Source: a virus
Direction: 5' to 3' (one strand)
IMG/VR virus record: IMGVR_UViG_3300050821_010761
Coordinates: 1-64,000 of that record
DNA: 64,000 nt
Shown: piece by piece, positions 7,217 through 60,338 of the stretch
Layout of the letters: each line of letters starts with the position of its first letter
How positions within the stretch are numbered: the stretch's first letter is position 1
Translations under genes and position numbers: made by a program
The notes under the pieces: generated by a model
The model's database searches: none
What the model was told of the DNA's origin: nothing
What the model saw: only the letters and a program-made list of their open reading frames with translations

Positions 7217-7798
7217 TTAAGGATCGCAGCGATTAAACATTTCATCGAGATATTCTCTCTGATGATGTTCTATGCAGAATGTAGAAGGGATTCTTGGATA
7301 CATTATGCTTAAGGGACATCCATCTGCATATCTTCCAGGTAGAGCAGCGTAAAATGGCAGTTTACGAGTCCATCTGCTAATCCATGCTACCGTATCCTCT
7401 ATAGGGATCGACTCATACGGTGTTCCATCGGCATAATCATGTGGCCTATTGCACAAACAATGTGTAAGTTCGTGAAATAAGAGCATTTTTCTAGATGCCT
7501 TTGAATTTTCATTCCACCATCCAGTATCCAGATCGATTTCTCTGATGGATCTGCCCCAATTTCTGTAACACACACCTATGACTTGACCCGCTTTGATATT
7601 AGTAAAACCCACTGTGACTGGTTTTGTAAGTTTTATATCGTGCGATTGTGCAAGTTTTACATAATCGTAAACAATAGGTTTTGCTCTGCTGTCAATTCCA
7701 ATGTAATGTGGAGTGAACCTATCTTTCAGTTTTGGTACCTTGGATTCATTGCAACTGCATGAAAACAATACAAAAAGTAGCAAAAAAAGTCGTCCCAT
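7217..7798 (-). CDS. Putative zinc metalloprotease lipoprotein (HELTH motif)
   Basis: A 193-residue protein with a short positive start, a hydrophobic core and a lipobox-like LFSC ending at Cys14, so probably a lipid-anchored envelope protein. Residues 109-113 are HELTH, a HExxH zinc-peptidase motif inside a hydrophobic helix (MLLFHELTHCLC), and His120 follows as a possible third ligand, one residue off the metzincin spacing HExxHxxGxxH. The C-terminal third has several Cys and His residues. It stands alone on the minus strand between two tail operons, facing away from the baseplate gene and sharing its upstream region. Phages rarely carry secreted proteases; capture from a host is possible. 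The substrate is unknown. Confidence 0.6.
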   Translation of the reverse strand: MGRLFLLLFVLFSCSCNESKVPKLKDRFTPHYIGIDSRAKPIVYDYVKLAQSHDIKLTKPVTVGFTNIKAGQVIGVCYRNWGRSIREIDLDTGWWNENSKASRKMLLFHELTHCLCNRPHDYADGTPYESIPIEDTVAWISRWTRKLPFYAALPGRYADGCPLSIMYPRIPSTFCIEHHQREYLDEMFNRCDP

Positions 7799-7803
7799 AT
7801 AAG

Positions 7804-7849
7804 TGATATATCATATCTGCAAGGGCATGCCCTAACCCCACAATCTTAT
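7804..7849 (+). promoter_or_regulatory. Candidate phage regulatory element: TGATATATCA ... CAATCTTAT
   Basis: The 75-base divergent gap between the lipoprotein gene and the gp25-like gene holds palindrome TGATATATCA at 7804-7813, a second palindrome GGGCATGCCC at 7823-7832, and CAATCTTAT at 7841-7849, 34 bases before the ATG at 7875. The first and third elements recur upstream of 21703 and 25192. The repeated occurrence just ahead of virion genes suggests a promoter or operator read by a phage factor. No good sigma-70 promoter is seen here. Confidence 0.45.
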
Positions 7850-7874
7850 TATGATGAAAAGGGAGCGCGTTTAA

Positions 7875-10514
7875 ATGGGTTTTGATACTCTAAGTGACCA
7901 GAACAACAACCTTATTGACCCAAGCGTCAATAATGTAATCCCAGCTTCTAGCCTTTCTTCTTTACTAGGAACTCCTGGCGTTAATGCCGCCAGAAATACC
8001 CCTCTGGCGTGGCAATCAAGTTCTATTACTAGTCCTTTTTTTCAATTCATTAATATTGATCCGACTAGATGGAATCAGCTATATCCATATCGTTTGTTGG
8101 TTATTGATGTCACGAATAATAATCTGGTCGTCAATGGCGGCAAACCATCTGATTTAGCGATCAATGTTACTAAGGGTAACGGCACAACTACTGTGATTGA
8201 TTATCAAGGTTTTGGTGCTCAATGGGCATTTGAATTGCCGATCACGCCCCAACAATTGACTATTCAGGATATGTTTTCTATTAGCACTTCTGCTACACTC
8301 AGAGGAGTCATAGAAGAACACAACGGCGTAAAATTCAAGATGATAAATGCTGCAGGAACGATGGGCATCTGGCCTGGTCGGGGAAGCGTAGTTGCTCCTC
8401 CAACTAGTCCATCAATTCTGCAGTCAGTATTCGGCGGCACTCTAGAAGCGTTTGGTAATTTGGCAAATCAGGTGCAGGCTACCATCAATGTCGCCACTGG
8501 TAAATCAGCCGCTCCCAAACCAATCACTCCGCTTCCAGAAACGTCCACGAATGGATTAGTTAGCACTGGTTATTATTCCGCAATGAAACTTCAGCAATTT
8601 CTTGAGCAGTATGCTGAAGCAAAAAAGAATCCTGCTAATGCTGGATGGCGATTAGTATTTGATATACCAAAACAGAATCAGTCTTATATCGTTACGCCGA
8701 TGCAGTTTAATTGGCAACAATCTCAAGCTAAAAGTATGGAGATCTTGTATTCTTTCCAGCTTAAAGCGTGGAGACGAATCGATCTACAAAACGTACCATT
8801 TGTTGCCGAGCCTGGAGTTTCTCCATTAACTCCTGGAATCCTACAGAGAGTGTTAAATACACTCTACCAAGCTCAAGTTACGGTTGCTGCAGCAACCAAT
8901 TTGATTGGGGCAGTAAAAAGTGACGTTGAGGCTCCTATCACCGCATTGCAGCAGACTACTTTGTTGGTGAAAGGTATCGCTGGTGCGGTAATTACAGCTG
9001 CAGATCTTCCACAACAATTAATAAGTGATTATAAAAGTGCTATCGGTAATGCCTTAAATGCATTAAGTCTAAACAGTTTGACTGGTCAAGCTAATAATAA
9101 TCCAACGGTTACTACTTCTTTGAAGAATTTACAGAAAAGCTATCAACAAACCGAAGGTTTGAGTATTACGGCTGTAGGCAATGGACAATTAGGAACTACG
9201 TCTTCTCAGAGTCAGCCATCTAATCCTGCTTTGAATATTTTTAGTCAACCAGCTGTTAATTTTCTATTGTTCGATCAAGTACCAGTTAACAGTCTGGTAT
9301 TAACTACCGCGCAACAAGCGGCTGTACAAACTGCTATTAACAACGCAAATGCCCTGACTGTGGCAGATTTGAAAGGTTTCAGAGCCACCATACAAACTTT
9401 GGCCTTACAGCTTTCCAACAACTTTGGAACGGGAGACGCATTCGTTAGCACTGTCTATAATCTTCCAGCGCCCATTACTCGCGTTACTCCAATTTCAATC
9501 ACCAACTATGAAATCTTAGACGCCCTATACGATACTATGTTGGCCTATGATTTATTGACTGCATCAACTCAGATTGACGATAATACCACGCAAACAAATA
9601 TGGAATACGTTGCTGGATTGGCTGCCACGTCTGGTATTGAATTTACTGTACCCAACAGCAAAATTATTGTACCAGTTCCTTTTGGTTTAACGGTTGAAGG
9701 AATTGCCTCCAGATATCTTGGTGATCCACAAAGATGGATTGAAATTGTTACATTAAATAATTTAAAAGAACCGTATATCGACGAAAACGGATTTCAGCTT
9801 CCTTTATTATCAAATGCGAACGGAAATTATGTGACTGTTTCGAGTGCAACGAATTTATTCTTAGGTCAAGCTGTAACCCTTTTAGGTATTGGACAAACGC
9901 CTTCTGCTCGGCTGATCTTAGATATTGATCAACTTTCTGCCACTAGCGTTTTATTAACATTAGATGGCCTGCCAAATTTAGACAATTTTACGACTGCAAA
10001 TGCCGCTTATGTACAGGCTTATTTGCCTGGGACAGTGAATAGTCAGCAAAAAATTTACATTCCCAGTGCCCTTCCAGTGCCAGATGTGCCAAATGTAGTA
10101 GTGCCTCCCATAGCTTCTGCCGATCCTCTAAGCGGCCTTAGTGAAGTAGATCTTTTGCTGACGGATTCTGGCGATATAGCTATCAATGTTTTTGGTGACT
10201 TCCGTTATTCCTATGGAATGACAAACGTGATTCAGGCTTTGAGAATCAAATTTGGTAGTGTTCAGGGAACCATACTAACGCACCCAGAGTTTGGTCTTGG
10301 CGTCCGACCTGGAACTATCAACTCAGATTTACAGGTTCAGGATTTGTATAATTCTATCAGCCAATTGATCGCTGCGGATAGTAGATTCGCTGGTATATCG
10401 AGTTTACAGATAGTTTTGGATGGTCCCACACTTACTATTAACCTTGGAGTAGTCCTAGCTGGTACTAATGGGGTATTCCCCCTTTCTTTCACTCTTAATC
10501 CTGCTGTAAGCTAA
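7875..10514 (+). CDS. Baseplate wedge protein with LysM-like and gp25-like domains
   Basis: An 879-residue protein. The N-terminal 280 residues are beta-rich; a passage around 255-300 (NWQQSQAKSMEILYSFQLKAWRR) resembles tail proteins that bind the tube end. Residues about 330-590 are Ala/Gln/Asn-rich and probably helical. Residues about 596-640 look like a LysM-type baseplate module (FGLTVEGIASRYLGDPQRWIEI). Residues about 758-879 match the gp25/gpW-type wedge domain (DIAINVFGDFRYSYGMTNVI, HPEFGLGVRPG). In other phages LysM protein and gp25 are separate, so this is a fusion. In contractile tails gp25 joins the wedge to the sheath. The baseplate-J-like gene follows 53 bases later, which fits the usual gp25-gpJ pairing. 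Confidence 0.7.
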   Translation: MGFDTLSDQNNNLIDPSVNNVIPASSLSSLLGTPGVNAARNTPLAWQSSSITSPFFQFINIDPTRWNQLYPYRLLVIDVTNNNLVVNGGKPSDLAINVTKGNGTTTVIDYQGFGAQWAFELPITPQQLTIQDMFSISTSATLRGVIEEHNGVKFKMINAAGTMGIWPGRGSVVAPPTSPSILQSVFGGTLEAFGNLANQVQATINVATGKSAAPKPITPLPETSTNGLVSTGYYSAMKLQQFLEQYAEAKKNPANAGWRLVFDIPKQNQSYIVTPMQFNWQQSQAKSMEILYSFQLKAWRRIDLQNVPFVAEPGVSPLTPGILQRVLNTLYQAQVTVAAATNLIGAVKSDVEAPITALQQTTLLVKGIAGAVITAADLPQQLISDYKSAIGNALNALSLNSLTGQANNNPTVTTSLKNLQKSYQQTEGLSITAVGNGQLGTTSSQSQPSNPALNIFSQPAVNFLLFDQVPVNSLVLTTAQQAAVQTAINNANALTVADLKGFRATIQTLALQLSNNFGTGDAFVSTVYNLPAPITRVTPISITNYEILDALYDTMLAYDLLTASTQIDDNTTQTNMEYVAGLAATSGIEFTVPNSKIIVPVPFGLTVEGIASRYLGDPQRWIEIVTLNNLKEPYIDENGFQLPLLSNANGNYVTVSSATNLFLGQAVTLLGIGQTPSARLILDIDQLSATSVLLTLDGLPNLDNFTTANAAYVQAYLPGTVNSQQKIYIPSALPVPDVPNVVVPPIASADPLSGLSEVDLLLTDSGDIAINVFGDFRYSYGMTNVIQALRIKFGSVQGTILTHPEFGLGVRPGTINSDLQVQDLYNSISQLIAADSRFAGISSLQIVLDGPTLTINLGVVLAGTNGVFPLSFTLNPAVS

Positions 10515-10515
10515 C

Positions 10516-10547
10516 GTGATAGACACATGAAAACAATAGGAATCTTT
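10516..10547 (+). promoter_or_regulatory. Weak copy of the candidate phage element
   Basis: In the 53-base gap before the J-like gene, GTGATA (10516-10521) is followed by AATCTTTA (10541-10548). This echoes the GTGATATATCA plus CAATCTTAT pairs upstream of 7875 and 21703, with nearly the same spacing as the latter (25 versus 27 bases), but the palindrome is incomplete. It may be a degenerate copy or chance. Confidence 0.25.
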
Positions 10548-10567
10548 AAGGTTACACGGAGTCAATA

Positions 10568-17674: not shown

Positions 17675-17675
17675 C

Positions 17676-19610: not shown

Positions 19611-19611
19611 T

Positions 19612-20138: not shown

Positions 20139-20703
20139 CGTGCATCTTTCTGGTCAAATAGTACCAAATCGTGAAAGTATTTTTAGCATCTGTCAAAGCC
20201 CTATGCTTATCGCCTTCGAATGTTAAACCTAGCCTTTTCATCGAATCTGCAAGTCCACCAGCGTATTGACCGTCTTCAAATAGTTGAATGCTCTGAAAAA
20301 GCGTCTTAGCATCCAAAACTCGCCAGCCCATGAAATTCTCTTCAGGAGGCATGTCATCGTGGAGATCAATCCATTCGTTACAGAATTCTTCATACAAAGC
20401 TAAGCTATCGTTTCTTATCCCAGATCCCCATACCAAAGGATTCTTGAATGCTTTATGTTTTTTATGAAATTCTTTCAATTCGTTGAAAGCCTCTAGAATA
20501 CCTGGTGCATTCTTTACGTCTTGATCGCGAATGCCAGTTAGATTGGTTATATACTCGCTAATAGGTTCGCCTGGATTGACATATGTTTCAAAAGTCCCCA
20601 TACACGCTGCTGACCTGGCATCATAGACCGCAGCACCAATTTGAATGCATTTTCGGCTAGGTTGCATGTACTCACAGTCAAGGACCATTATTTTGCGCGA
20701 CAT
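20116..20703 (-). CDS. DEDDh 3'-5' exonuclease (DnaQ/DexA-like)
   Basis: The start is set at ATG 20703 (MSRKIMVLDCEY), which has GGAG six bases upstream; in-frame alternatives at 20709 and 20730 are less well placed. The 195-residue protein has the exonuclease motifs Asp9 and Glu11 (LDCEY), the middle helix with Asp (GSGIRNDSLALY), and His167 and Asp172 (HRALTDAKNTF), which make the DEDDh set complete. In spacing it resembles T4 DexA-type single-strand exonucleases. It lies in a minus-strand island within the virion region, overlapping the transglycosylase gene. A second DEDDh enzyme sits at 49607, so this one is likely not the polymerase proofreader but works in DNA or RNA turnover. Confidence 0.75.
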   Translation of the reverse strand: MSRKIMVLDCEYMQPSRKCIQIGAAVYDARSAACMGTFETYVNPGEPISEYITNLTGIRDQDVKNAPGILEAFNELKEFHKKHKAFKNPLVWGSGIRNDSLALYEEFCNEWIDLHDDMPPEENFMGWRVLDAKTLFQSIQLFEDGQYAGGLADSMKRLGLTFEGDKHRALTDAKNTFTIWYYLTRKMHDGLKTKK

Positions 20704-21136
20704 TTTCATCTCCAGGATCCAGATTATCACAAGTTATCATATTTTGGAAATGTTTACTTAGTTTCTTGCGGACGTTGAGAACGTACTTTAGATTTCTTGG
20801 ATGGCCAGGTTCTCGTCTACTTTCGTTAAACCGCCCAGCATTGAAAGCTGCAATAGTTTTGCACCAATTGTTGTAGCGGTCGTATTGATATTTCAAATAT
20901 AGGGCAGCATATCTTGCGTTGATCTTTGGATTCAGGAGTCCTTTTGGATTCCCTTCGTATCCAAGCATATGCGCAGTTTCGTATTTGACTTGGCAAATGC
21001 CTATGGAAGCGCTTCCACCGTCGTGTGGTACGACCACATTATTTAATCCAGTCTCATGAGTGCATACGGCCACAAGAATTACGCTCGAAATTTTCACCGA
21101 CTTAGCTGCGGTTATTAATATTTGAGTAAAATCCAT
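20678..21136 (-). CDS. Lytic transglycosylase (SLT-type endolysin candidate)
   Basis: The start at ATG 21136 is supported by GGAGG five bases upstream; a longer frame begins at 21157. The 152-residue protein carries the SLT signature: catalytic Glu28 in THETGLNN, then SIGICQVKYETA, then AALYLKYQYDRYNNW and IAAFNAG. These enzymes cleave the glycan strand of peptidoglycan and form anhydromuropeptides. There is no signal peptide, so it would need a holin or delivery with the virion. The C-terminal 40 residues are basic and then acidic. It is preceded by a candidate promoter and followed by the exonuclease and the 33-aa membrane peptide, which could be its lysis partner. Confidence 0.75.
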   Translation of the reverse strand: MDFTQILITAAKSVKISSVILVAVCTHETGLNNVVVPHDGGSASIGICQVKYETAHMLGYEGNPKGLLNPKINARYAALYLKYQYDRYNNWCKTIAAFNAGRFNESRREPGHPRNLKYVLNVRKKLSKHFQNMITCDNLDPGDENVAQNNGP

Positions 21137-21152
21137 TGAACCTCCAGGTATT

Positions 21153-21180
21153 AGCATAGCACAACTATGCCAAAAAGCAA
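21153..21180 (-). promoter_or_regulatory. Candidate sigma-70-like promoter for the transglycosylase gene
   Basis: On the minus strand TTGCTT (21180-21175) and TATGCT (21158-21153) are spaced by 16 bases, and TGC directly before the second hexamer gives an extended -10. The ATG lies about 17 bases further. A short hairpin GCATAG/CTATGC (21154-21170) overlaps it, which could also be the signal that counts. Confidence 0.3.
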
Positions 21181-32537: not shown

Positions 32538-33518
32538 TTATTTGATTTTGTCTGCTTTAAGAATGGCATTGACGGCTTTTCTTATCACGTCTACATCTTG
32601 TCCTAGGTTGAATCTACCATAGCTATCATCCGTCCCCAAAGAAGATCCAGTAGTCCAATTTATTCCAGCTTTTTGTAGCAACTTATTGCATTTTGCATCA
32701 ATTTTGCTATAGTGGAACATTCCCTCATCTCTAACTGGCCATGAATGGAAAAATTTCTCAAGCTTTGACCATTGCCCTCTATTATCGTCCAAAAATCCTT
32801 TCGCCAATTTTTCGAAACTTTCCCAGTCGAAATCATAAAGTGCATTTTTAATAATTTCTTGGCTTGCAATACCAAGACCACAGTATTCGCCCATCAAAAG
32901 TTCCCTGATTCTTTCTGACAACAAATCATCGTTAGTGGCTATCCATCCGACTCGAATACCATTTATGCCTAGTAGTTTGCTATAACTGCCAGCCAAAATG
33001 TCGTGAGCGGGAATGGGGATGAAACATCCAGAAGTATAAATCTTATTCAAATAGACACCATCAAGCAACATTGGCGACAACATAGATTTGCTAATGCCGT
33101 GGATAATGCCTAGTGGATTAGAAGGGATATCCAACAGAATTACGCTCTCTTTTGGATCTATGTGACGATTTTCGTCGACATGCATAAGATCTGCCGCTTT
33201 AATCATGGAAGGATATCTCAAATACCAAGGCGCATTTCTGGTGTGGCAATAGATAGCCCCACGTTGTTTTAACGCCCTCAAGCCTATTGTGACAGCCCCA
33301 GTTGCGCCATTGGTAAGAAATACATATTTCTTTTCTATTCCAGTCTGTCGCTTGATTACCTGCTTGGTAATTTCTATTAGTTCTTGATCGCCGCCATATG
33401 CTGGATAGTCGAATGTGGATAGGCGGTCTCTGGTGAAAATGATCATGTTGCCATGGTAAGTCTCAAGGAATGCTTTTCTTACGCAAACGGAATTGCCAAA
33501 ACCTAAGTCCAACTTCAT
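32538..33518 (-). CDS. PLP-dependent aminotransferase (fold type I)
   Basis: A 326-residue protein with the full set of class I/II aminotransferase marks: cofactor-phosphate loop near residue 70-75 (TNGATGAV), Asn134 in PSNPLG, Asp153-x-x-Tyr156 (LLDGVY), PLP lysine Lys181 in GSYSKLLG, and Arg189 in GIRVGW. Near the C terminus GRFNLG supplies the substrate-carboxylate arginine. It is shorter than the usual 360-400 residues, with a reduced N-terminal arm. Closest in look are histidinol-phosphate/aspartate aminotransferase types. Substrate unknown: amino-acid supply, base modification or a cell-surface amino sugar are possible. It is the last gene of the minus-strand transcript and shares ATGA with the preceding gene. 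Rare in phages. Confidence 0.8.
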   Translation of the reverse strand: MKLDLGFGNSVCVRKAFLETYHGNMIIFTRDRLSTFDYPAYGGDQELIEITKQVIKRQTGIEKKYVFLTNGATGAVTIGLRALKQRGAIYCHTRNAPWYLRYPSMIKAADLMHVDENRHIDPKESVILLDIPSNPLGIIHGISKSMLSPMLLDGVYLNKIYTSGCFIPIPAHDILAGSYSKLLGINGIRVGWIATNDDLLSERIRELLMGEYCGLGIASQEIIKNALYDFDWESFEKLAKGFLDDNRGQWSKLEKFFHSWPVRDEGMFHYSKIDAKCNKLLQKAGINWTTGSSLGTDDSYGRFNLGQDVDVIRKAVNAILKADKIK

Positions 33519-34917: not shown

Positions 34918-35203
34918 AAGACGTTTCTTTGCCAGACAGCCATGCGCCCAGGAGAATCCTTTTCCCAGTATTTTTGTCAAAAAAAAGAAAATTTAATTTA
35001 TCATCCGTGGTCCAGATCCTGATTCTCGGTACGGGGGAAGAAATGTTCAATTGTTTCTGATACTTGGACAATAAAGCATTGAGTTCATGCTGAATTTGAT
35101 CCGCCTTGTCCATACTATAACCGCCTTGAATAGTCTTTTGTAATGGACCAAAGCGTTTCTCCATCCAGAGAAGTTTTTCTATTGCGTCCACATCATCATA
35201 CAT
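34907..35203 (-). CDS. Unassigned small protein
   Basis: A 98-residue protein with a helical first half (DVDAIEKLLWMEKRFGPLQK, ELNALLSKYQKQL) and a beta-like second half (RIRIWTTDDKLNFLFFDKNT). It overlaps the ClpP-like gene by 8 bases and the CYTH gene by 11, so it is firmly within the operon. No motif was recognised. Confidence 0.6.
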   Translation of the reverse strand: MYDDVDAIEKLLWMEKRFGPLQKTIQGGYSMDKADQIQHELNALLSKYQKQLNISSPVPRIRIWTTDDKLNFLFFDKNTGKRILLGAWLSGKETSYDH

Positions 35204-35786
35204 CTGTTTCTTCTCCTAGAATCTTATCAGCAAGCCCCAGATTAACGGATTCCCTTGCATCTAATATAGTATCGAAGTTTAGAAGCTCTTGCAACTTTTT
35301 AAGTTTGAACATAGGATGTTTCTCGTGAATTTTCTCTAAATACAAGGTTTCCATCCATGCAGAGAACTTTTTACATTCTTCGGTCCAACTCCATTGTGCT
35401 TTGGCATGAAGATCCGAATCGGCCAACAATGGGGTGCCGTAATGGATCAATTGCTTGGCATTTGGTGCCATTATACGCTCATCACCAGCCTGAAAAATGA
35501 TGCTGCCCATCGAATGGACATTACCAATGCCAATAATTATTACTTTGCTCGTGCAAGCTCTAATGGTATCATAGATCGCCATGCCATGATATTCGTCGCC
35601 GCCGCAATTGTTCAACTTAATAGTAAGAGGAACATCTGGTTGTATGGCATCCAATATGTGTAACCCTTTTAAAACATTCTCAGCTACGACTTCATCAGAG
35701 TCGCCCACGGTAATGAGGGTTTTACTTGGCAAGTGGATGCCATAGTCATATAGCTTGTCGATATCGTCTCGGTTTATTTTCGCCAT
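35196..35786 (-). CDS. ClpP-like serine protease
   Basis: A 196-residue protein matching the ClpP fold: LTIKLNNCGGDEYHGMAIYD (oxyanion region), catalytic Ser92 in VHSMGSI, His115 in LIHYG, and Asp172 in NFDTILDARESVNLGLADKI, in the place of the ClpP aspartate. The triad is complete. Phages use ClpP-type enzymes mostly as prohead proteases that trim the scaffold, but here the gene is in the replication half, next to a primase, with no portal or capsid gene in view. Intracellular protein turnover is therefore as likely. The usual hydrophobic ClpX-docking features cannot be judged. Confidence 0.8.
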   Translation of the reverse strand: MAKINRDDIDKLYDYGIHLPSKTLITVGDSDEVVAENVLKGLHILDAIQPDVPLTIKLNNCGGDEYHGMAIYDTIRACTSKVIIIGIGNVHSMGSIIFQAGDERIMAPNAKQLIHYGTPLLADSDLHAKAQWSWTEECKKFSAWMETLYLEKIHEKHPMFKLKKLQELLNFDTILDARESVNLGLADKILGEETDV

Positions 35787-43668: not shown

Positions 43669-44457
43669 CTATTTTTTAAGTAAAGTTTTCATCGAATCAA
43701 TTGTAGCTTTTACATTCTCTTCTGTCACTTCTTTTACTTTGAAAGTATTGATGCTTTCCGAAGAGAAATTATTCAAAGACTTTGATACCTTGCCTGCCAA
43801 AACAAGCATAACACGATTGCCACGAATTCCCAAGTCTTTAAGTAAATCTTGAGTGAGTTTTTCATCGCTAGTGGACAAAAGGATAGAAGTCGTCTTACCA
43901 GAATGATTGCGATTGATAGCTTCATCAAGAATCGAAGTCGTAGCTTGAATACCAACGATTTCGGCACCAATTTGTTCATTGATGGCCTCTTTAACGATTG
44001 ATGTAAATTCTTCCTGCGTCTTTACTGGCTTTAGATATTTTTCCTTAAAGATCAATTGATTATATTGATTGGCGTCCAATTCCATCATCTTGTCTTCGAG
44101 ATGACGTCCTAAAACGTCGAACAAATTCTGTTGGCCCTCTTTACCTAAATAAAGCGTGGGATGAATGCGTCCAGATAGATCAGAATAAAACTGATCAGGA
44201 TCGGCAGAAAACAGTTTGAATCCTTCGCCAGTTGCAATTGTTTCAAAATCTTTTCTTTGTGAGCCAGCCACGATAATGAAAACCGCACTCTTTAGAAGAT
44301 CAAGTCGATACATACTTTTTAACACAGCAAGCTGTTCGATTGCTTGATTTTTTCTTCCACGGCGACCATTCAGTGTCTCTGCTGGTCCATCTTCTACATT
44401 TTCATTAGCGAATTGCTTATAGCTATTGATTTGATTTAAAACACTTTCAAGTGACAT
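43669..44457 (-). CDS. Unassigned protein upstream of SSB
   Basis: A 262-residue protein of alternating helices and strands (SAVFIIVAGSQRKDFETIAT, TTSILLSTSDEKLTQDLLKD, GNRVMLVLAGKVSKSLNNFS), which suggests an alpha/beta Rossmann-like fold. No nucleotide-binding motif or catalytic set is clear. Conserved position between a membrane protein and SSB may point to a DNA-related role or virion protein; not assigned. Confidence 0.55.
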   Translation of the reverse strand: MSLESVLNQINSYKQFANENVEDGPAETLNGRRGRKNQAIEQLAVLKSMYRLDLLKSAVFIIVAGSQRKDFETIATGEGFKLFSADPDQFYSDLSGRIHPTLYLGKEGQQNLFDVLGRHLEDKMMELDANQYNQLIFKEKYLKPVKTQEEFTSIVKEAINEQIGAEIVGIQATTSILDEAINRNHSGKTTSILLSTSDEKLTQDLLKDLGIRGNRVMLVLAGKVSKSLNNFSSESINTFKVKEVTEENVKATIDSMKTLLKK

Positions 44458-44466
44458 GTGTGCTCC

Positions 44467-44673
44467 CTAAGATAAAATCTTAACTGCTAAAGTTACTAGT
44501 GCTGTAAGTGCGGTGATGCCCAACAGAAAATTTACAAGGTGTCCGAGACCGATTCCTACGGTTATGAGAAAAGCAGTTCTAAATGGGGTCTTGCTTGTTG
44601 CTGCCAATGCTGATGTCGTAAGCGTTGCAAAAGTGTTCGTCACACCAGTGGGGTTTGTAGTATTATCGTTCAT
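44467..44673 (-). CDS. Small membrane protein
   Basis: A 68-residue protein with a polar Thr/Asn-rich N terminus and two closely spaced hydrophobic segments (FRTAFLITVGIGLGHLVNFL and LGITALTALVTLAVKIL), forming a likely helical hairpin in the inner membrane. GGAG lies before the ATG. It is the first gene after the promoter at 44693. A class II-like holin or membrane anchor is possible but not shown. Confidence 0.6.
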   Translation of the reverse strand: MNDNTTNPTGVTNTFATLTTSALAATSKTPFRTAFLITVGIGLGHLVNFLLGITALTALVTLAVKILS

Positions 44674-44730: not shown

Positions 44731-45549
44731 TTAATTGCAAACGTTTTTTTCTTTAGAAGCCAACTTACCAGTTGCCACAGCCGTAGCTTGTGAGGTGCCC
44801 GTCATATACATACATTGTCCAGGAACGCACACCTTGACATTTGTACCTTTTTCCCACATATTAACTCTATCTCCGAAATTACTAGTGGGATTATGGGTTT
44901 CTCCATTTGAATAAAGGTTTCCTACTACTATCACACGATCATCATCCATGGCAGGATAATATGGTTTTTTTGCCAAATCAGATCTTTCGTTTCCTGCAGC
45001 TGCTACAAATTTTCCGCCAGCATCTATGAATGCTTTTACGGCCTGTTTTTCCTCATCCCTGGTAGAAAGTCCTCCACCAGAATAATTGAAATATTTTGCA
45101 TGAATGCTTGTTGCGTAGTTAATTGCTTTGATGGTATTTTCTAAATTATCATTATTTTCTGAATCTGAAGATGGATTGTAGTATTTCAATATGACTATGC
45201 AATAATTTACATTCGTCTGTTTTAAGATTCCGTCTATGATACCAGCGACATGTGTTCCATGTCCGTGATCATCCGATGGAACTGGATCAACAGTAGCGTA
45301 GTCTGCAAGCGGATGAAATTTTTGAACAGAAGTGAAGTCTCTGTGACCAAACTTGCAAAGTTTTATTTTGAGATCAAATAATGTTGCTCCAAATCCAGTA
45401 TCTGCTATTGCTACCACAATTGGTTTTCGCGTGCAAGGTATGCCCACCCTTTTCTTTGGCTTTTTAACTGGGAATGGTTGACTCGGTGCTGTTCCACAGC
45501 TAATCAAAGCTAACATTACTGATAAAATCAACGAAAAAGATACTTTCAT
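44731..45549 (-). CDS. Subtilisin-like serine protease lipoprotein
   Basis: A 272-residue S8-family protease with the full triad: Asp50 in VAIADTGF, His97 in HGHGTHVAG, Ser253 in TGTSQATA, plus the Asn region AAAGNE. The first 18 residues are a lipoprotein signal (LALISC, lipidated Cys18; +2 is Gly, so outer-membrane sorting in an E. coli-like system). No long propeptide is present and several Cys pairs could form disulfides. This is a secreted or periplasmic enzyme, very unusual for a phage. It has its own promoter starting in the polymerase stop codon. Origin by transfer from a bacterial host is likely. Substrate unknown. Confidence 0.8.
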   Translation of the reverse strand: MKVSFSLILSVMLALISCGTAPSQPFPVKKPKKRVGIPCTRKPIVVAIADTGFGATLFDLKIKLCKFGHRDFTSVQKFHPLADYATVDPVPSDDHGHGTHVAGIIDGILKQTNVNYCIVILKYYNPSSDSENNDNLENTIKAINYATSIHAKYFNYSGGGLSTRDEEKQAVKAFIDAGGKFVAAAGNERSDLAKKPYYPAMDDDRVIVVGNLYSNGETHNPTSNFGDRVNMWEKGTNVKVCVPGQCMYMTGTSQATAVATGKLASKEKNVCN

Positions 45550-45555: not shown

Positions 45556-45584
45556 ACTATATTACAAAATGGGACGGTAGTCAA
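45556..45584 (-). promoter_or_regulatory. Strong sigma-70-type promoter for the subtilisin gene
   Basis: TTGACT (45584-45579), 17 bases, TATAGT (45561-45556) on the minus strand, a near-consensus match. The TTGACT contains the TGA stop of the polymerase gene. The -10 ends only six bases before the ATG at 45549, so the transcript would start at or next to the start codon (leaderless) unless translation begins further in. Confidence 0.6.
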
Positions 45585-48500
45585 GTCTCAACAACCACGC
45601 TAATAATAGCCATATCCTTCCTGCCTATCTTTTTTCTGAAAAACGCCGTTATGATGCTACCTTTTTTAAGTTCTGGTGGATATACTAGTTTTCCACTCTC
45701 ATATTCGGGCCACATGACCTTTTCTGAAACATAGCCGTCCGCGTCAAGAACCAATTTGAGAGCCCGCTTTGTGCCGTTAGAAAATGAGAATTCTTTAGCT
45801 TGGATAACAAAACAAGTAGCGGCTATGTATACGTCTTTTTCCAACGTCTCGCCAGTCATTTCGTCTAGGCGTTGCAACTTCTCTCCATTTATGAGCAGAG
45901 TTTTATAACCTTTGGCATTGATAACCATTGGAACACCAGCGCCTTGATTAGAAAGGACTTTTGAATGATTCTTGCCTAGATCAAACATGTTGATTGGCAA
46001 AGATGGTAAAACTGCCTTTTTCATTGCCGCTTCTTTTATTGGAAACTTTTCAATTTCTATGTATTCTTCTGGAATCTCACTTTCTTTTGGTCCTGTGGAG
46101 CGAACTTTTTTGCCTTCTTTTGCCGCTTTTTCAAGTTTATCAGAGTAAGCTTTAGCTTCGACTGCGTCTTGATACATCTTAAGTTTTTCTAAAAGGCCAG
46201 TTTTAGGAGGAAATAGGCTATCAAGTACCCCAACATGAATGAGCTTATGACTAAGACTGTCCCCAGCAACATCTTTATCAACAAATTCTTTAATGTTTGC
46301 ATATGGTCTTCCGTTGACGATTGGATCTATTGTAGCATCGCCCATTCCTCTAATGACGCCTAGTTTGGAGCGAATTTTCTCATTGGCGTAGTCAACTACC
46401 ATATGATCACCAGATAGATTAATGTCTGGCGGCAATACCATGTCTTTAACATAAGGCCAGAAAGTGCCTGTGATTTCTTGCTCAGAAGCATTTGTAAGAA
46501 TTGCAGCCCACCATTCAAGTGAATAATAATGCCTTAAGAACATGCAAGCATAAGCAATGTGCATATAACCAACTGCATGAGAAGAATTGAATCCGTATCT
46601 TCCGAAAGTGACCATCTGCTCCCAAATTTTTTCCGCTGTTTCCAGGGAGACCTTTTTTGTAGCACCTTCCAAGAAATCAGGCTTCATTTTGGTCAACTTA
46701 TCCATTTTCTTCTTAGCCATGTTTTCTCTAAGAAGTTCCGCTGTTTCCGCATCCATATCGGCTAAGCCACTAGCGATCTTATTTAAATTTTCTTGGAAAA
46801 CCAACACGCCGTAAGTATCAGGCAAAAGGTCTGCCATTTCTTGGATATCTGGCGAAGATTCGCCTTTTCTTCTGAGCATATATTCTTCGATCATGTTTCT
46901 GCCAGTGTTAGGATCTATGTAATCCGCTGGACCAGGACGAACGAGTGCAGTCAAAGTAGCTAAGTCCATCATGCTTTTTGGCAGCATTTCCATTAGATGG
47001 GGCCTAACCGCATTAGTACTGAGTTGAAAAATGGTTTCTGTGGAACCGTTCCAAGTAGATTGGTAAACTTCTAATATTTCTGGTAGATCCCAAATGTAAA
47101 GTTTCTCGCCCTTGTGAGTGAAATAACCTACTGTATTTTTTTCATTATTTTTTTTATTAATCAAGTCAAGACAAATTCTAATATCTTTGAGTTGCGCCAC
47201 TGTAAGAAAGTCGTACTTGATCAAACCTGCCGACTCAGTCTCCTTAGCTTCGTACTGGGTTATGCAACCTTCCTTGGTGGGAATTACGTTTTTAATGGGC
47301 ACGTCAGCCAAAACGAAAGCGCAAGGATGCTGACCAAAGGCTCTCGTGATGCCCATGGCTTTAGAAACAATTTCCCATTCTTGTGGATATTTGTTTGCAT
47401 ATTGTTGCAATTCAGTAGATTGATCAATCAATCCAGGAACGTGGGTACCATCTGATTCATTTTCATAGCCTAGGACATACTTGGTATCAGAAATTCCAGT
47501 TGGCGGTGTCCCGAAACCCTTAGTCAATACCTCAATTTCTGGCAATACCTTACCATGGAAGTATCTATTAGTATCTTTTATGGCACTCTTAAGACGAATT
47601 GTGGTTCTAGTACTAATTCTAGCTGCTTTATCGCCCCATCGACTATACAAATAGCCGCTTTTGCCATCTTCGCCAGTTAATAACTCCTGACTTTCTAGAT
47701 CTGTATCTATATCTGGCAATTTTTTACTTTGAATTCTGACCATGGAAAAGAAGCGTTGAAAAGGAAGATCGTATTTGAATGGATTGATCTGTGTGATTCC
47801 AGTAATGTAGCATAGCAGTGAGCCTCCAGAACTACCTCTCAAGGGACCAACCAGTTGACCATTTTCTTGATAATGATTTAGAACGTTGCGAATTGGCAAA
47901 AAATAGGGTGCAAGATCGTAAACTCCATTTCCATGAATAACTTCTATTTCTTCTTTGAGTCTAGCAACATATTTAGGATCGTCCCATTTCATACGACCAG
48001 TCTCTTTGGCTATCTTCATCAGTTCTTGTATAGCTGAGCCTTCGCTTTTCGCCAAGCGCCAATCGTACTTGAGTGAAAAATTGTCATATTTCTCTGCCCA
48101 GGAGGCATTATTGTGCAAGTAGATGGATGTAGACAAAGGATCTATCCCTAGAACATCAACTAAGTATTGACCCATTTCTGTGAAATCTTTCATGTAATAA
48201 TTGGGCTGCAATTTGTTATTGCCCTCTAATCGCATAGTCTGGACGATCTTATCTTCCTTGTTGGCATAATAAGCATAATCAGAAACCATTACGGTTACGT
48301 CGTGTTTATTTGCTAAAGCTACTAGGAATTTATTGACTTTGGTTTGTGCGTCTCCACCAGGCAATGGCAGAAAGCCTTTGTGCAACTTAACGGAATCTAT
48401 GTCTTTATTGATTTCGTAGAATGCCATGCCCTTAGTTAAGGACTTGATCGTAGAATGTCCAGATCTTTCTGCTAAATCGAGAGCTTTGATCCTACGAGCC

Positions 48501-49183
48501 CTATCGGTCGTCACAGTATCGTTGGCTAAAATTGCGTCCTTAGTACCATCCGTATATTTGATCTCTACTACCTGACTCCACTTTTTCATGTATGGTTCAG
48601 CGATCAAAGCGATCCAGAGTCTTTCCCAACCGAAAATTTCTTTGAGTTTTTCTAGAATCTTTTGTCCAGCTTCAGCTGCGCCCGCGAGCATGGTTTTTCC
48701 AACCATGCAATGTACGCCGCCGATGACAAAATCGACGTTGAACTGCGATATGAATTTAAGATCTTTCCATGACCAAAGTTGCTGTTTTTCTTCATAGATC
48801 TCGATAGTCGGTAAGTCCGTTCGACTAACAAACTTGACTAATTCTTGATAGGCTGCTTGGTCTCTGCAATAGATAGTGGCATTGAAATATTTACAGCGAT
48901 CAGCAGGAGTACCAGCTACAAAAGGGCACTGAGGATCTTTAAAGAATATTTCTATTCCAGGAATGAATTTCATCCCCTCTTTAGTGCATTGCTCATAGGC
49001 TTTCATGGCAGAAGAAAGATGGCCCATATCAGTATAGGCGAAATATTTTCTTCCAAGTTCCTTAGCTTTGGCAACCATAGCTGGTAGGGTAGCTCCAGTC
49101 AATGGGGATTCAGGATGGCAATGTGGGCTCACCGTAAGTATTGGAGTTTCAACTGGGGTTTCTGGTGTAACGATTCTGATCAT
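45581..49183 (-). CDS. dnaE: DNA polymerase III alpha-like replicative polymerase
   Basis: A 1200-residue C-family polymerase. Order: N-terminal PHP domain (residues 1-270), palm with catalytic pair in KLPDIDTDLE (near residue 489), fingers with AFGQHPCAFVLAD and LTALVRPGPADYIDP, QENLNKIASGLADMDAETAE, and YGFNSSHAVGYMHIAY, then the C-terminal HhH/OB region. Where bacterial DnaE has TDHG the PHP domain reads YTDMGHLSS and the first His cluster is altered, so PHP proofreading activity is probably lost; a separate DEDDh exonuclease is encoded at 49607. Catalytic aspartates are intact. This should be the phage's main replicative polymerase. No beta clamp or clamp loader was seen in the window. 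Confidence 0.85.
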   Translation of the reverse strand: MIRIVTPETPVETPILTVSPHCHPESPLTGATLPAMVAKAKELGRKYFAYTDMGHLSSAMKAYEQCTKEGMKFIPGIEIFFKDPQCPFVAGTPADRCKYFNATIYCRDQAAYQELVKFVSRTDLPTIEIYEEKQQLWSWKDLKFISQFNVDFVIGGVHCMVGKTMLAGAAEAGQKILEKLKEIFGWERLWIALIAEPYMKKWSQVVEIKYTDGTKDAILANDTVTTDRARRIKALDLAERSGHSTIKSLTKGMAFYEINKDIDSVKLHKGFLPLPGGDAQTKVNKFLVALANKHDVTVMVSDYAYYANKEDKIVQTMRLEGNNKLQPNYYMKDFTEMGQYLVDVLGIDPLSTSIYLHNNASWAEKYDNFSLKYDWRLAKSEGSAIQELMKIAKETGRMKWDDPKYVARLKEEIEVIHGNGVYDLAPYFLPIRNVLNHYQENGQLVGPLRGSSGGSLLCYITGITQINPFKYDLPFQRFFSMVRIQSKKLPDIDTDLESQELLTGEDGKSGYLYSRWGDKAARISTRTTIRLKSAIKDTNRYFHGKVLPEIEVLTKGFGTPPTGISDTKYVLGYENESDGTHVPGLIDQSTELQQYANKYPQEWEIVSKAMGITRAFGQHPCAFVLADVPIKNVIPTKEGCITQYEAKETESAGLIKYDFLTVAQLKDIRICLDLINKKNNEKNTVGYFTHKGEKLYIWDLPEILEVYQSTWNGSTETIFQLSTNAVRPHLMEMLPKSMMDLATLTALVRPGPADYIDPNTGRNMIEEYMLRRKGESSPDIQEMADLLPDTYGVLVFQENLNKIASGLADMDAETAELLRENMAKKKMDKLTKMKPDFLEGATKKVSLETAEKIWEQMVTFGRYGFNSSHAVGYMHIAYACMFLRHYYSLEWWAAILTNASEQEITGTFWPYVKDMVLPPDINLSGDHMVVDYANEKIRSKLGVIRGMGDATIDPIVNGRPYANIKEFVDKDVAGDSLSHKLIHVGVLDSLFPPKTGLLEKLKMYQDAVEAKAYSDKLEKAAKEGKKVRSTGPKESEIPEEYIEIEKFPIKEAAMKKAVLPSLPINMFDLGKNHSKVLSNQGAGVPMVINAKGYKTLLINGEKLQRLDEMTGETLEKDVYIAATCFVIQAKEFSFSNGTKRALKLVLDADGYVSEKVMWPEYESGKLVYPPELKKGSIITAFFRKKIGRKDMAIISVVVET

Positions 49184-51731: not shown

Positions 51732-51734
51732 TCA

Positions 51735-53378: not shown

Positions 53379-53395
53379 ATTGTTTCCCGTAGTTA

Positions 53396-54046: not shown

Positions 54047-54058
54047 TTTTTCTCCTAT

Positions 54059-54316: not shown

Positions 54317-54321
54317 ACTTC

Positions 54322-56214: not shown

Positions 56215-56216
56215 GG

Positions 56217-56507
56217 TTATTGCCCACCTTTTTCTTCAATCAAATTCAACAGATAGCGAGTCTTCGTTGCTACTGCTTTTTTCACTTCACGATACGGAGC
56301 GCCCAACTCTTTTACTTCTGCCCTAGCAGCTGCTAAAGCTTCGTCGTTTTCTTGGCATTCTTCCGACTTTGAAAGCTCACGTGCATAATTGGCGATGCGA
56401 TTTTTTAGCGCCTGTACGTCCAGACCAGCCACTTCATTGGCGAATTCTGGCATTTCTTTTTGTACTTTACCTGCGAATGTCAACGGTTCTTTTTTAGGTC
56501 TTCCCAT
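56217..56507 (-). CDS. Small helical protein with AT-hook-like start
   Basis: A 96-residue protein that begins MGRPKKEP, like an AT-hook (GRP core), followed by helices (DVQALKNRIANYARELSKSE, KKAVATKTRYLLNLIEEKGG). The T4 UvsY mediator has similar size, but no specific match is seen. DNA binding is plausible. GGAG precedes the ATG. Confidence 0.55.
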   Translation of the reverse strand: MGRPKKEPLTFAGKVQKEMPEFANEVAGLDVQALKNRIANYARELSKSEECQENDEALAAARAEVKELGAPYREVKKAVATKTRYLLNLIEEKGGQ

Positions 56508-56518
56508 TTTATTCTCCT

Positions 56519-56809
56519 TTAAACTTCATACGATAGATGAAAATCTGATGCCGCAACGTCTCTATTTCTGAAAAAAACTGCAATGTTGTCGCCATCGTCC
56601 AGGGGGATCTGGAAAGGATAAATTACGTTTTCGGCTGATTTTCCATATAGTGTCGTAAGTACTTTGCCATTTTTCATAACGATATAGGTACCATGAGCGA
56701 CGGAAGAAAAAACCATTTTTGTAATCATTCCACCCTCTTTAAATTTCAAGACGGTATTCTTAGTGTAGCCTGCTTTTACATTTCTATGTGTAACATTTTT
56801 AATTGCCAT
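56519..56809 (-). CDS. Small beta protein
   Basis: Start at ATG 56809 with AGGAG at good distance; a longer frame begins at 56827. The 96-residue product is beta-rich and basic at first (AIKNVTHRNVKAGYTKNTVL) and ends in DDGDNIAVFFRNRDVAASDF. It resembles small virion or DNA-binding sandwiches in character, without a family match. Confidence 0.55.
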   Translation of the reverse strand: MAIKNVTHRNVKAGYTKNTVLKFKEGGMITKMVFSSVAHGTYIVMKNGKVLTTLYGKSAENVIYPFQIPLDDGDNIAVFFRNRDVAASDFHLSYEV

Positions 56810-56810
56810 T

Positions 56811-57146
56811 TTATCTCCTGTAGTCAAATTTGACTAATTTTTTAAGCAATCTATTTTTATTCAAATAACCAATCAAGGCATCCATCATCAATATGTAGTT
56901 AAATTCTACGCCACTGACTTCTTTGTTCGATATATTAAGCGGCATCTTTGTGGTTGCAAATACAGTCTTTGCCACACTTAACATTCCCGTAAACTCATGA
57001 TAAGTAATCATGTGATCAATTCTATCAGTGCCGAAATGCTTATTGATAATAGCCATCAAGTAGGGCAAACGGTCTGATTTTCTTATGTTGTCTTCTATTT
57101 CCAGGAACGCTCTCAACTCTTGTTCGATCTGTGCTGGATCAGACAT
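56811..57146 (-). CDS. Unassigned helical protein following SbcC
   Basis: Start at ATG 57146, overlapping the SbcC stop (ATGTCTGA); a longer frame begins at 57161. The 111-residue product is helical (QIEQELRAFLEIEDNIRKSD, FNYILMMDALIGYLNKNRLL). No family recognised. Coupling to sbcC may imply a recombination role. Confidence 0.55.
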   Translation of the reverse strand: MSDPAQIEQELRAFLEIEDNIRKSDRLPYLMAIINKHFGTDRIDHMITYHEFTGMLSVAKTVFATTKMPLNISNKEVSGVEFNYILMMDALIGYLNKNRLLKKLVKFDYRR

Positions 57147-59202
57147 TTGCATCCTTTTCAATTCTGCTTGTTAGTCCTTCTCTGACTACTACTAGTCTGT
57201 TCTGGACCATTTGTTTAACTTCTGAATTATGATCTACAATGACGATCTTCTTGTTCGTATTGGAATTCTTTAAGACTTCCAACGAAGGTTCAATTTCTAC
57301 TGGACCGAGGCCCGTGAAGGGTTCATCCAAAATAAAGATGTTTATGCCCTTATTAGACTTTGTCTCGATAAAGTCTATCACAGCAAGATCTACCGCTATA
57401 TCGACTGCAGATCTTTCCCCGCCAGAAAGACTTCTGATGGGAATCTTTTCTTCTCCATCCATTCCAATGACAGCATTTACTTCTTCCTTTACGTTACCAT
57501 CTTTGGTTTCTCTCGTACCATCGAATTGTATAGTAGCATTACTCATGTTAGGAATGCAACGAATAATTTCAGTGGAACGTTGACTGATCGCCTCTAAAGC
57601 ATCTTCAAAAGAATAGGAAAGAAAAGTTTTCACAGCTTTGCAGGCTTCCTCTGCTAAAGCAATGTCCGCATCTATTGCGGAAATTGAAGATTTTATCTCC
57701 GCAATCTTGTTTGTAAATTTTTCTTCCTTGCTCTTTAAATCGGCAAGATTTTTTTCATATGAAGCCAATAAATCAGCGGCTGATCTCATGGCAGAGACAG
57801 CGTTGTCGAAAAGTCTACGGGATAAGTCCAGTTGTCCCCTAGCTTGATTAGCCTCGGCAGTCTGGAATTCTAATAAGGCTTTCTGCTTATGTGCAAATTT
57901 TTCACTTTCGATTTTATTGGCAGCATTTTGTTTGGCAATCCACGCATCTTCTTTTTGTTTCTCTTCTAGATGCTTTGTATGAGTTTCCCTAAGAGCTTCA
58001 TTGATATCAGGCAATCTAGGATCTATCTTTGGTTTCAGGTTTTCTTTGTTGATCTCTACGTTCTTGTCGAGCACAAGGCGATCCTGTAAAGCTTGAGTGC
58101 CCCTATCCATAATTTTCTTTAATTCTAACAACTTAGCGACTCTATTCGATATCTGATTGGTAGCAACTTCAGTTGCCCACGTTTGTTCGCATGTGGGACA
58201 AATCGATGCCTTGAGTTTCTTTATTTCTTCTGCCAGTTTGATCGATTCTTCATGGGCCTTCTTCTGTGCGGCTTGTAGGACGTTGTTTTCTTTGATTGCC
58301 ATGTCATTAATGGACGTGCATTCTCTGACCTTAGCTTGACGATCTTTTTCTTCTTGAAGGATGACGCTAATTTTGCTATTAAGCTCATCGATAGTTTTTT
58401 TGTGAAATTCTAATAAAGAACGATCAAATGGAACAACTGATAATTCTGGGCGTTCTCTCTCAAGTTGACTTATATTCAAATTATGGACCGCGAGCACACT
58501 TTTTAGTTCGTTTTCAGCCTCTTCCATTTTCTTTTTGAGGCTGATCACCGTATCCTGGCTCATATTTTTATTTGGAACTGGACCAAGCGATTGGGCGGCT
58601 TCTTTGGTTGCGGTCAAGGCCGCTTCCTGACCAAATAATTCTGTTTCTTTTACGGTTCTTCGCTCTAGAAAATCTTTGATTTTTTTCTCTTCTTTTTCAT
58701 AATCCTTACGATATTTTACGAGATCCAAACAATCAATCAAAAACTCGTGCATCTTTTGCGGAGTGAACTCTAGGAAAAACCCACCCTCTTTTTGACGTTT
58801 ATGTAAAAGTTTCCTGAATATCTTTCTTGGCATACCCAGGATTAAGTCGATCTGCTCTTCCGCTAAAGCATTGCTACCTTCGAAAACCTTATCGTTAATG
58901 GTGACTTTTAATTTCTTTCCTCTGGTAATGGATACTTTTTTGCCATCCCATGAGAAATCGCCGTGTAGACTCATGGGCTCATCGGAATATCTAGATTGTA
59001 AAATCGTTATAGGTAGATCGTTAAGACCAAGTAAAACGTCCAAGGCATTGAAAACCGTAGTCTTGGCAGCCCCACTAGATCCACCAGTATTCTTATTCAA
59101 TCCATCAATTTGAATGAAGTCGTCAAGAGAAGCAAAATTTATGGATTGCTCTTTGACGAATCTTCCTATACCGCCAAAACGCAATTCTAGAAGCTCTAGC
59201 AC
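57139..59202 (-). CDS. sbcC: SbcC/Rad50-like recombination ATPase (gp46-type)
   Basis: A 687-residue SMC-like protein. N-terminal Walker A GGSSGAAKTT (residues 40-49, with Ala where most members have the last Gly), coiled-coil arms, zinc hook CPTC near residue 340, coiled coil back, then ABC signature SLSGGERSAVD, Walker B INIFILDEPFTGL and IVIVDHNSEV. The arms are shorter than in bacterial SbcC, as in T4 gp46. With the SbcD-like protein at 61657 it should process DNA ends for recombination-dependent replication. Unlike in T4, five genes separate the two partners. Confidence 0.85.
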   Translation of the reverse strand: MLELLELRFGGIGRFVKEQSINFASLDDFIQIDGLNKNTGGSSGAAKTTVFNALDVLLGLNDLPITILQSRYSDEPMSLHGDFSWDGKKVSITRGKKLKVTINDKVFEGSNALAEEQIDLILGMPRKIFRKLLHKRQKEGGFFLEFTPQKMHEFLIDCLDLVKYRKDYEKEEKKIKDFLERRTVKETELFGQEAALTATKEAAQSLGPVPNKNMSQDTVISLKKKMEEAENELKSVLAVHNLNISQLERERPELSVVPFDRSLLEFHKKTIDELNSKISVILQEEKDRQAKVRECTSINDMAIKENNVLQAAQKKAHEESIKLAEEIKKLKASICPTCEQTWATEVATNQISNRVAKLLELKKIMDRGTQALQDRLVLDKNVEINKENLKPKIDPRLPDINEALRETHTKHLEEKQKEDAWIAKQNAANKIESEKFAHKQKALLEFQTAEANQARGQLDLSRRLFDNAVSAMRSAADLLASYEKNLADLKSKEEKFTNKIAEIKSSISAIDADIALAEEACKAVKTFLSYSFEDALEAISQRSTEIIRCIPNMSNATIQFDGTRETKDGNVKEEVNAVIGMDGEEKIPIRSLSGGERSAVDIAVDLAVIDFIETKSNKGINIFILDEPFTGLGPVEIEPSLEVLKNSNTNKKIVIVDHNSEVKQMVQNRLVVVREGLTSRIEKDANV

Positions 59203-59451
59203 TTATTTTTCCCTGTAATTCTTTTTTGATCTTTCTTGATTGATCTCAACAATATCTGGGATAATTTCCACAGCGCGGGCCTGGAATCCATTATCTACAA
59301 CTATCTTACTAGAAGAAGTGGGAGAAGACAAGCACTTTTTCATTTCTTTTTGGCACTTGTCACAAACAATTACGGCAGGTATTTCATTTACCTGCCGATA
59401 ATATTTTTTCTTAGAATTTTTACACTCACATAGGTACGAGATGAGTGGCAT
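59203..59451 (-). CDS. FmdB-like zinc-ribbon protein
   Basis: An 82-residue protein with the FmdB-type start MPLISYLCEC and a second knuckle CDKCQKEMKKCLSSPTSSSK, giving two Cys pairs for one zinc. Such small regulators are common in phages and of unknown detail; DNA binding is assumed. Directly precedes sbcC with no gap. Confidence 0.65.
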   Translation of the reverse strand: MPLISYLCECKNSKKKYYRQVNEIPAVIVCDKCQKEMKKCLSSPTSSSKIVVDNGFQARAVEIIPDIVEINQERSKKNYREK

Positions 59452-59453
59452 AT

Positions 59454-60338
59454 TTACATCAACAAATTTCTTTGCATGATCTCACAAAGTTGTTTTACTT
59501 TATTCTTCTCATCAGAATCGCAAATATTTTGAAGTTTTTCCATGCTAGTAGCCTCTTTAGCTTCTTCTTTTTCTCCAAAAATGTTAACGACGTTGGACGG
59601 ACGATTATAGGGTAAATGTTTGGATTCATTCAAGATGAAGTTGCGCACGTATTCGTAAGGAACTGTCCAAGCATAACCTATGTCTCCGCTACCAGCAAAA
59701 ACAACCCCAGACAACTCCATATCTTCATTGTACACAGCGCTACCGCTTGAACCAGGACTAATAGTTGCTGTTACGAGAACAGAATCATATTGTTTCAATA
59801 CTGGCAAGCCACCAAGAAGTAGGCAATACAATCCTTTCTTTGAATCCGCCACATCGTCATCCGTGCATGGCTTGAAATCCACTAAAATGGTAATCGTCTG
59901 TCTGCCAGAGAAGTGACCGATTGTTTTTACGTTTGGATAAAGAGAAGGATGACCAGAGATAAGAGCGCCTTCATAATAGGGTACAGGAGCGCGATTTGCC
60001 AACTTTACGCCACCATGTAAATTGCCAGCTACTCTGATCAAGCAAAGATCTGCTGTTTCGGATTTTTTGTACGAAACGACCATGAAACTTCCCGCTTGTC
60101 CACTGACCAATCCGCCATACTTTTCCACTACTCCACAAACGTGTGAGTTGGTAAGGATCAATGATCCATTCTGGCTAGATTTCAGGATGATTCCTGTTCC
60201 ACCATGATTGCCAGCTATATTTGTAATTTTTACTGCGTTAGCGCTAGCGTCTTTATAGTCTGGCTGTTGTTGTCTCGTAGCGCACGCGGACAATACCAGA
60301 ACCGCTACGGCAAGTAGCGCTTTCTTAACAAGGGACAT
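59454..60338 (-). CDS. Trypsin-like serine protease lipoprotein
   Basis: Start at ATG 60338 (TGATG overlap with the stop upstream); GTG 60341 is an alternative. The 294-residue product has a lipoprotein signal (VLVLSAC, lipidated Cys19, +2 Ala) and a chymotrypsin-fold domain with His66 in LTNSHVCG, Asp97 in ADLCLIRV and Ser198 in PGSSGSAVYN, so the triad is complete. The last 50 residues are a charged helix. Located in the envelope, it could degrade host or competitor surface proteins. Secreted proteases of this type are exceptional in phages. It lies between housekeeping phage genes and is cotranscribed with them. Confidence 0.8.
   Translation of the reverse strand: MSLVKKALLAVAVLVLSACATRQQQPDYKDASANAVKITNIAGNHGGTGIILKSSQNGSLILTNSHVCGVVEKYGGLVSGQAGSFMVVSYKKSETADLCLIRVAGNLHGGVKLANRAPVPYYEGALISGHPSLYPNVKTIGHFSGRQTITILVDFKPCTDDDVADSKKGLYCLLLGGLPVLKQYDSVLVTATISPGSSGSAVYNEDMELSGVVFAGSGDIGYAWTVPYEYVRNFILNESKHLPYNRPSNVVNIFGEKEEAKEATSMEKLQNICDSDEKNKVKQLCEIMQRNLLM

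Follow-up and report, generated by a model that had tools for sequence, protein, structure and literature searches.

The DNA analysed here (the window: bases 1-64,000 of a 168,807-base virus record, labelled G000) encodes on its minus strand three predicted lipoproteins with protease active sites of different mechanism: a subtilase of family S8, a trypsin-like protease of family S1, and a zinc metallopeptidase. The first-pass annotation had read all three open reading frames from the sequence, and their positions, the residues assigned to them (Asp50/His97/Ser253 and His66/Asp97/Ser198), and the HELTH zinc motif are correct. Its distinction of three mechanisms also holds, as the S8 and S1 proteins pass Pfam cut-offs and the HELTH family has invariant residues in 31 sequences.

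The subtilase (44731-45549, minus strand; 272 aa) matches Peptidase_S8 (PF00082) at 1.3e-21 with 77.6 bits, above the cut-off of 21.8, and has a predicted lipidation site at C18 and no propeptide. The whole S8 domain is present, with the D/H/S triad typical of the family (D50, H97, and S253) and the oxyanion Asn (N155); the triad is invariant in 41 of 41 phage homologs, and N155 is found in 39 of the 41. The phage enzymes are mostly 217-309 aa long; they have an N-terminal export signal, either a lipobox or an ordinary signal, and offer no space for a propeptide.

The S1 protein (59454-60341, minus strand; residues numbered from a second start, the ATG at 60338) matches Trypsin_2 (PF13365) at 7.8e-11 with 43.3 bits, above the curated cut-off of 27.6. 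Its H66, D97, and S198 form the triad of family S1, invariant in 14 of 14 homologs. It differs from other Trypsin_2 proteins in that the lipoprotein of this phage has its own C-terminal, Cys-containing tail; in related S1 forms from other phages, a membrane segment at the N-terminus serves as the anchor.

The predicted zinc metallopeptidase (7217-7798, minus strand) lies antisense between baseplate genes and contains an HExxHC-x5-H motif, with HELTH at residues 109-113, followed by a Met-turn. Across 31 distinct phage sequences H109, E110, H113, C114, and H120 never vary, and M166 is kept in 30. Matches in Pfam are sub-threshold, including PhageMetallopep (PF18894; 0.0052), for which the window protein scores 17.3 bits and its relatives 21.4-23.0, short of the cut-off of 23.7. 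An AlphaFold model built from 29 sequences has a pLDDT of 90, compared with 63 for a model built from five, whose fold matches carried no meaning. With the 29-sequence model, Foldseek returns weak matches in the PDB (E values 0.03-0.6), mostly zincins; the best match in BFVD (3.6e-8) is an unnamed phage protein, and SprT-like matches are weaker. The protein resembles zincins (SprT-like proteins, PhageMetallopep, and metzincins) in its HExxH helix, third His, and Met-turn-like xMxP, and its predicted fold is tentatively nearest to theirs, but it is a lipoprotein with an extra conserved Cys and falls below the PF18894 cut-off. Its HExxH-x6-H spacing also departs from the metzincin consensus, HExxHxxGxxH/D, so we call it zincin-like and place it in no named family, although it may work like a metzincin.

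In comparisons with the nearest relatives, all three genes have a saturated pS of 0.79-0.83 and a pN of 0.22-0.35. A pN well under a saturated pS, taken with active sites that do not vary, indicates that the enzymes are functional and under purifying selection. Chance occurrence of the motifs was considered and rejected, given the invariance of the catalytic residues across phage homologs.

Export signals and other protease genes

A rule-based scan finds a lipobox in all three proteases, with the lipidated residue predicted at C14 or C16 in the metallopeptidase, C18 in the S8 protein, and C19/20 in the S1 protein. None has Asp at position +2, as had been noted previously; the +2 rule, by which lacking Asp there predicts sorting to the outer membrane, is enterobacterial and may not hold in this host. 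The lipid anchoring emphasized in the first-pass annotation is predicted for the three proteins of this phage, but in some relatives a plain signal peptide or a membrane anchor takes its place. The constant feature across relatives is predicted export, not lipidation.

The same scan of the whole phage yields six lipoprotein candidates, three of which are the proteases, and an identical scan of Myxococcus phage Mx1 (OR576727) yields a single lipoprotein, which is not a protease. Two further lipoproteins were noted in this phage. One (L005:9132-9884, corresponding to G000:C1:130132-130884, minus strand) has a PA14 domain (6.6e-12) and a sub-threshold collagen-like stretch; collagen-like lipoproteins are present too in two sister phages (G021 and G028) and in an unrelated one (G032). 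The other (62652-62894, minus strand) is an 80-aa protein of no recognized family that adjoins a phosphoesterase-like gene and could be an outer-membrane accessory protein.

The earlier total of five proteases for the window is a fair count, with one member resting on motifs. A ClpP-like protease (35196-35786, minus strand; PF00574, 1.1e-25) carries no signal, is predicted to be cytoplasmic, and stands outside the exported set; Mx1 has a counterpart (WNM70285). The fifth gene (5221-5757, plus strand) encodes a CPBP-like integral membrane protein, possibly an intramembrane protease, that has no Pfam match; WED...P, F...H, and H...D are conserved in 16 homologs, compared with EExxxR/FxxxH/HxxxN in the CPBP type.

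Fixed places in a clade of large phages

The phage is related to Mx1, whose genome is 169,621 bp (PMC10720576). The DNA polymerase of the window is 32.5% identical over 98% of its length to that of Mx1, and gene order around the polymerase, an SbcC-like nuclease, and baseplate genes is common to both; Mx1 differs in having neither the S8 nor the metallopeptidase gene. Scans of viral contigs identified seven closer sisters (polymerase identity 56-72%) and approximately 20 remoter relatives. Single-sequence scans of viral contigs with each protease gave no match; the protease homologs were recovered by profile searches built from the sister phages, and these place metallopeptidase homologs in 38 viral loci.

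Of the 19 non-redundant clade contigs in which this position is readable, 18 have the S8 gene directly downstream of the DNA polymerase gene, with a homolog of 43669-44457 following it. These 18 are the window, 16 others, and G073:C11; the exception is L039/G026. In the window the upstream flank is a gene for DNA polymerase III alpha (45581-49183, minus strand), identified by Pfam and PHROG matches, and the downstream flank (43669-44457, minus strand) is conserved next to S8 across clade contigs. In this phage an open reading frame for a hydrophobic, membrane-like protein of 68 aa (44467-44673, minus strand; no PHROG match) also lies downstream of S8. In Mx1 both flanking genes are adjacent, with S8 missing between them.

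In every one of 18 clade contigs with the metallopeptidase (16 non-redundant contigs plus the window and G073:C11), its gene runs antisense to the same pair of baseplate-region genes and lies between them. One flank (5993-7174, plus strand), in the tail/baseplate region, is conserved in most clade contigs; the other (7875-10514, plus strand), a baseplate protein gene (phrog_975, 1.7e-17), is found in all contigs with the metallopeptidase at this place. A profile search of the complete record of one relative, G027, detected no metallopeptidase. A second, divergent HExxHC metallopeptidase copy occurs in six phages (G025:C1:99969-100406, G032, G036, G037, G039, and G047).

The third place was read between homologs of 60637-61293 and 59203-59451 (both minus strand). 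All 19 phages in which it was readable have a gene for an exported serine protease there; the G024 gene is cut by the contig end. In the window a 100-aa open reading frame (60338-60640) intervenes on the upstream side. The small protein on the downstream side has an Mx1 homolog (WNM70304; blastp 32%, 1e-11) and is followed by a gene for an SbcC-like recombination endonuclease subunit (57139-59202, minus strand; phrog_77, 8.9e-40). Within the clade the occupant is S1 in three phages only (the phage of the window, its closest sister G020 at 67%, and G027 at 52%); in 16 non-redundant sisters it is an unrelated serine protease of the ClpP fold with a signal peptide. The five of these exported proteins that were tested match ClpP (family S14; PF00574) at 6e-14 to 3e-17, and Ser112 and His135 are invariant among them. 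Cytoplasmic ClpP-like genes exist apart from them; given its signal peptide, the exported form would act beyond the cytoplasm and have no Clp ATPase to work with. The replacement may have been a single event within the clade. In Mx1 the small flanking protein adjoins a gene for the chaperone GroEL (OR576727, 167113-168885), at the place where sister phages have the exported protease.

In profile searches, complete sister records contain S8, the metallopeptidase, and either S1 or exported ClpP, never both. The first-pass annotation had named an outcome that would speak against its own proposal, namely genes that are random, unrelated fragments and missing from sister phages. The opposite was observed, with the genes in fixed slots in the sisters. 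Of the trio that it proposed to look for in related phages, S8 and the metallopeptidase are shared, but the full trio is found only in the closest relatives, and S1 is not a universal member: it is one of two interchangeable occupants of its slot, with the ClpP fold in 16 of the 19.

Comparable sets occur beyond the clade. Large phages without linkage to the polymerase also combine S8, S1, and metallopeptidase genes (G032, G036, G041, G042, and G050); in the unrelated G032 (146,658 bp) a lipoprotein S8 adjoins a membrane-anchored S1, and two metallopeptidases lie elsewhere. Among 29 S8-bearing phage contigs of at least 50 kb, S1 is present in 13 and exported ClpP in 12, and none has both (P = 3.5e-5, a value that assumes independence and is overstated for phages that share ancestry). 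In ten Mx1-like phages that are more distant and at least 121 kb long, neither S8 nor S1 is present, and there is one weak metallopeptidase match. A search of 50,697 named phage records returned nothing for the S1 and metallopeptidase queries and only seven distant matches for S8; with the named records nearly empty, essentially only uncultivated phages have the set.

Bacterial relatives and probable host

The best-scoring cellular S8 proteins among the matches listed are almost all from Bdellovibrionota, with 35-44% identity. These bacterial enzymes are mostly 385-500 aa long, whereas the phage forms are mostly minimal (about 220-290 aa), exported, and devoid of a propeptide region. In the S8 tree, Bdellovibrionota fall on a separate branch made up of 40 bacterial and four phage rows; the phage S8 proteins stand mostly apart from it, so that capture from bacteria, if any, would be old. 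The top 'bacterial' match, from a Saprospiraceae metagenome-assembled genome (MAG), was rejected as a host gene and left uncounted, as it lies on a syntenic phage contig.

The metallopeptidase is found in 78 of 340 Bdellovibrionota genomes (23%), mostly as a lipoprotein, compared with ten of 345 Bacteroidota genomes (3%, with the phage contig left out). An S1 profile gave one weak match and no close relative in the 340 Bdellovibrionota genomes; no clear donor emerged from bacteria, and S1 hence carries no host signal. No tRNA genes were found in the phage that might serve as a host clue.

The S8 affinity and the distribution of the metallopeptidase make a predatory-type host likely, and on these sequence relationships the host probably belongs to the Bdellovibrionota. 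Our findings thus lend indirect support, through the affinity of two protease families, to the predatory host guessed at in the first-pass annotation. Bdellovibrio exports many serine proteases (PMC7174725); in the papers searched we found no large phages of such predators described. The Saprospiraceae-binned contig itself (JALHRR010000011.1; 129 kb, loci L279-L285) is a fully syntenic sister phage with S8, metallopeptidase, and exported ClpP; binning of phage contigs into MAGs is unreliable, and this placement could be either misbinning or a true alternative host.

Possible roles of the exported set

The export signals and fixed genome places of these genes suggest dependence on proteolysis outside the host cytoplasm. 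The core exported set would combine a subtilase (S8) and a zincin-like metallopeptidase with a serine protease of S1 or ClpP fold. While the phage replicates, these enzymes would act in the envelope of the infected cell, breaking down envelope proteins as well as prey-derived peptides that the cell has imported, and this digestion would feed phage production once host expression stops; stripping of surface receptors would be a possible side effect. Tentatively, we regard such support of the host lifestyle, by salvage of peptides and proteins in the envelope of an infected predator, as the most likely use of the set.

Several features are consistent with this proposal. The S8 gene and the interchangeable serine protease gene share the strand and gene block of the replication genes, so that their products are probably made before lysis. 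The swap of different folds at one slot would indicate that selection favours broad proteolytic capacity in the envelope over a single exact cut. That the set is missing from Mx1 and that its enzymes resemble those of Bdellovibrionota suggest adaptation to a Bdellovibrio-like predatory host. Several points weigh against salvage in a predator. Mx1 lacks the set although Myxococcus, too, is predatory; no close S1 relative was found in the 340 Bdellovibrionota genomes, and no metallopeptidase was detected in G027; one sister phage is binned with Saprospiraceae; the change of fold may have happened just once in the clade; and lipoprotein or membrane anchoring would hold most of the enzymes on the infected cell, a better match for work in the envelope than for free digestion of prey. 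A virion role was rejected in view of the signal peptides and of the placement of the genes in the replication block or antisense.

A rather doubtful alternative is superinfection exclusion, in which the proteases would break down the outer-membrane receptor that the phage itself uses, or would clip tail or ejection proteins of incoming phages once these reach the periplasm; the infected cell would be protected, and progeny would be kept from sticking to debris. Where the function of a phage lipoprotein is known, it is often exclusion, as with Llp of T5, and the location of the genes in the replication region of most phages, away from lysis genes, would suit this function, as would N-terminal signals that are always directed to the envelope while the mode of anchoring varies. 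However, a set of three to four enzymes from different classes, with a swap of folds, exceeds what cleavage of one receptor would demand. Participation in lysis, by spanin-like cutting of the tethers between outer membrane and cell wall or by aiding escape from the predator and the prey remnant, is unlikely, since the S8 gene of the clade lies beside the polymerase and the S1/ClpP slot beside SbcC, in the replication block and not in a lysis cassette; the SLT transglycosylase gene is elsewhere, at 20678-21157. Judged by location, a spanin or lysis-module assignment thus fails in this clade. The points in its favour are two exceptions next to SLT genes: in G043 (L080) the gene immediately upstream of S8 is homologous to the SLT transglycosylase gene of the window, and G073:C11 has a matrixin-like lipoprotein beside an SLT transglycosylase gene. 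The latter (L282:17642-18208; PF00413, 3e-13; HEFGHALGLHH) is an extra gene and represents a fourth exported protease class.

Destruction of bacteriocins, contact-delivered toxins, or periplasmic anti-phage proteins would suit several classes of broad specificity, and there is distant similarity to protease modules in PADLOC models (S8, 2.4e-10; S1, 6.9e-6). These similarities are shared-domain matches only, however, and no linkage to known counter-defence genes was found, so we consider a defensive role quite unlikely. Least probable by far is the chance pick-up of unrelated host genes ('morons') without a common role. In its favour, every family has bacterial relatives and S1 is patchy within the clade. 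For S8, the metallopeptidase, and the S1/ClpP slot, however, it is already contradicted by slots that are fixed in some 18-19 phages apiece, by active sites that do not vary, by purifying selection, and by co-occurrence in unrelated phages; stray host genes free of selection were rejected on the same grounds.

The salvage reading can be extended, more speculatively, to several phage lineages: unrelated large phages of Bdellovibrio-like predators might independently have assembled a kit of exported proteases (S8, S1 or exported ClpP, and zincin-like) that keeps predatory digestion and peptide uptake running, a proposal to which we give a modest chance. If true, the kit would be a set of auxiliary genes tied to bacterial predation, comparable to the photosynthesis genes of cyanophages.

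Phage proteases are known in capsid maturation; our literature search found nothing on point for phage-encoded envelope proteases. The enzyme families described here are mostly known, but a conserved exported set that is fixed in its genomic slots and swaps classes is, to our knowledge, new, and its predicted action in the envelope, with non-homologous replacement in one slot, would be a strategy seldom noticed in viruses until now. Should the host prove to be a predator like Bdellovibrio, the set would link viral accessory genes to predation and provide handles on large predator phages. The unnamed lipoprotein metallopeptidase family, common to these phages and Bdellovibrionota, is ready for structural and biochemical work. 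Elsewhere in the window, a gene at 32538-33518 (minus strand) encodes, by sequence reading, a putative PLP-dependent aminotransferase with homologs in several Mx1-like phages.
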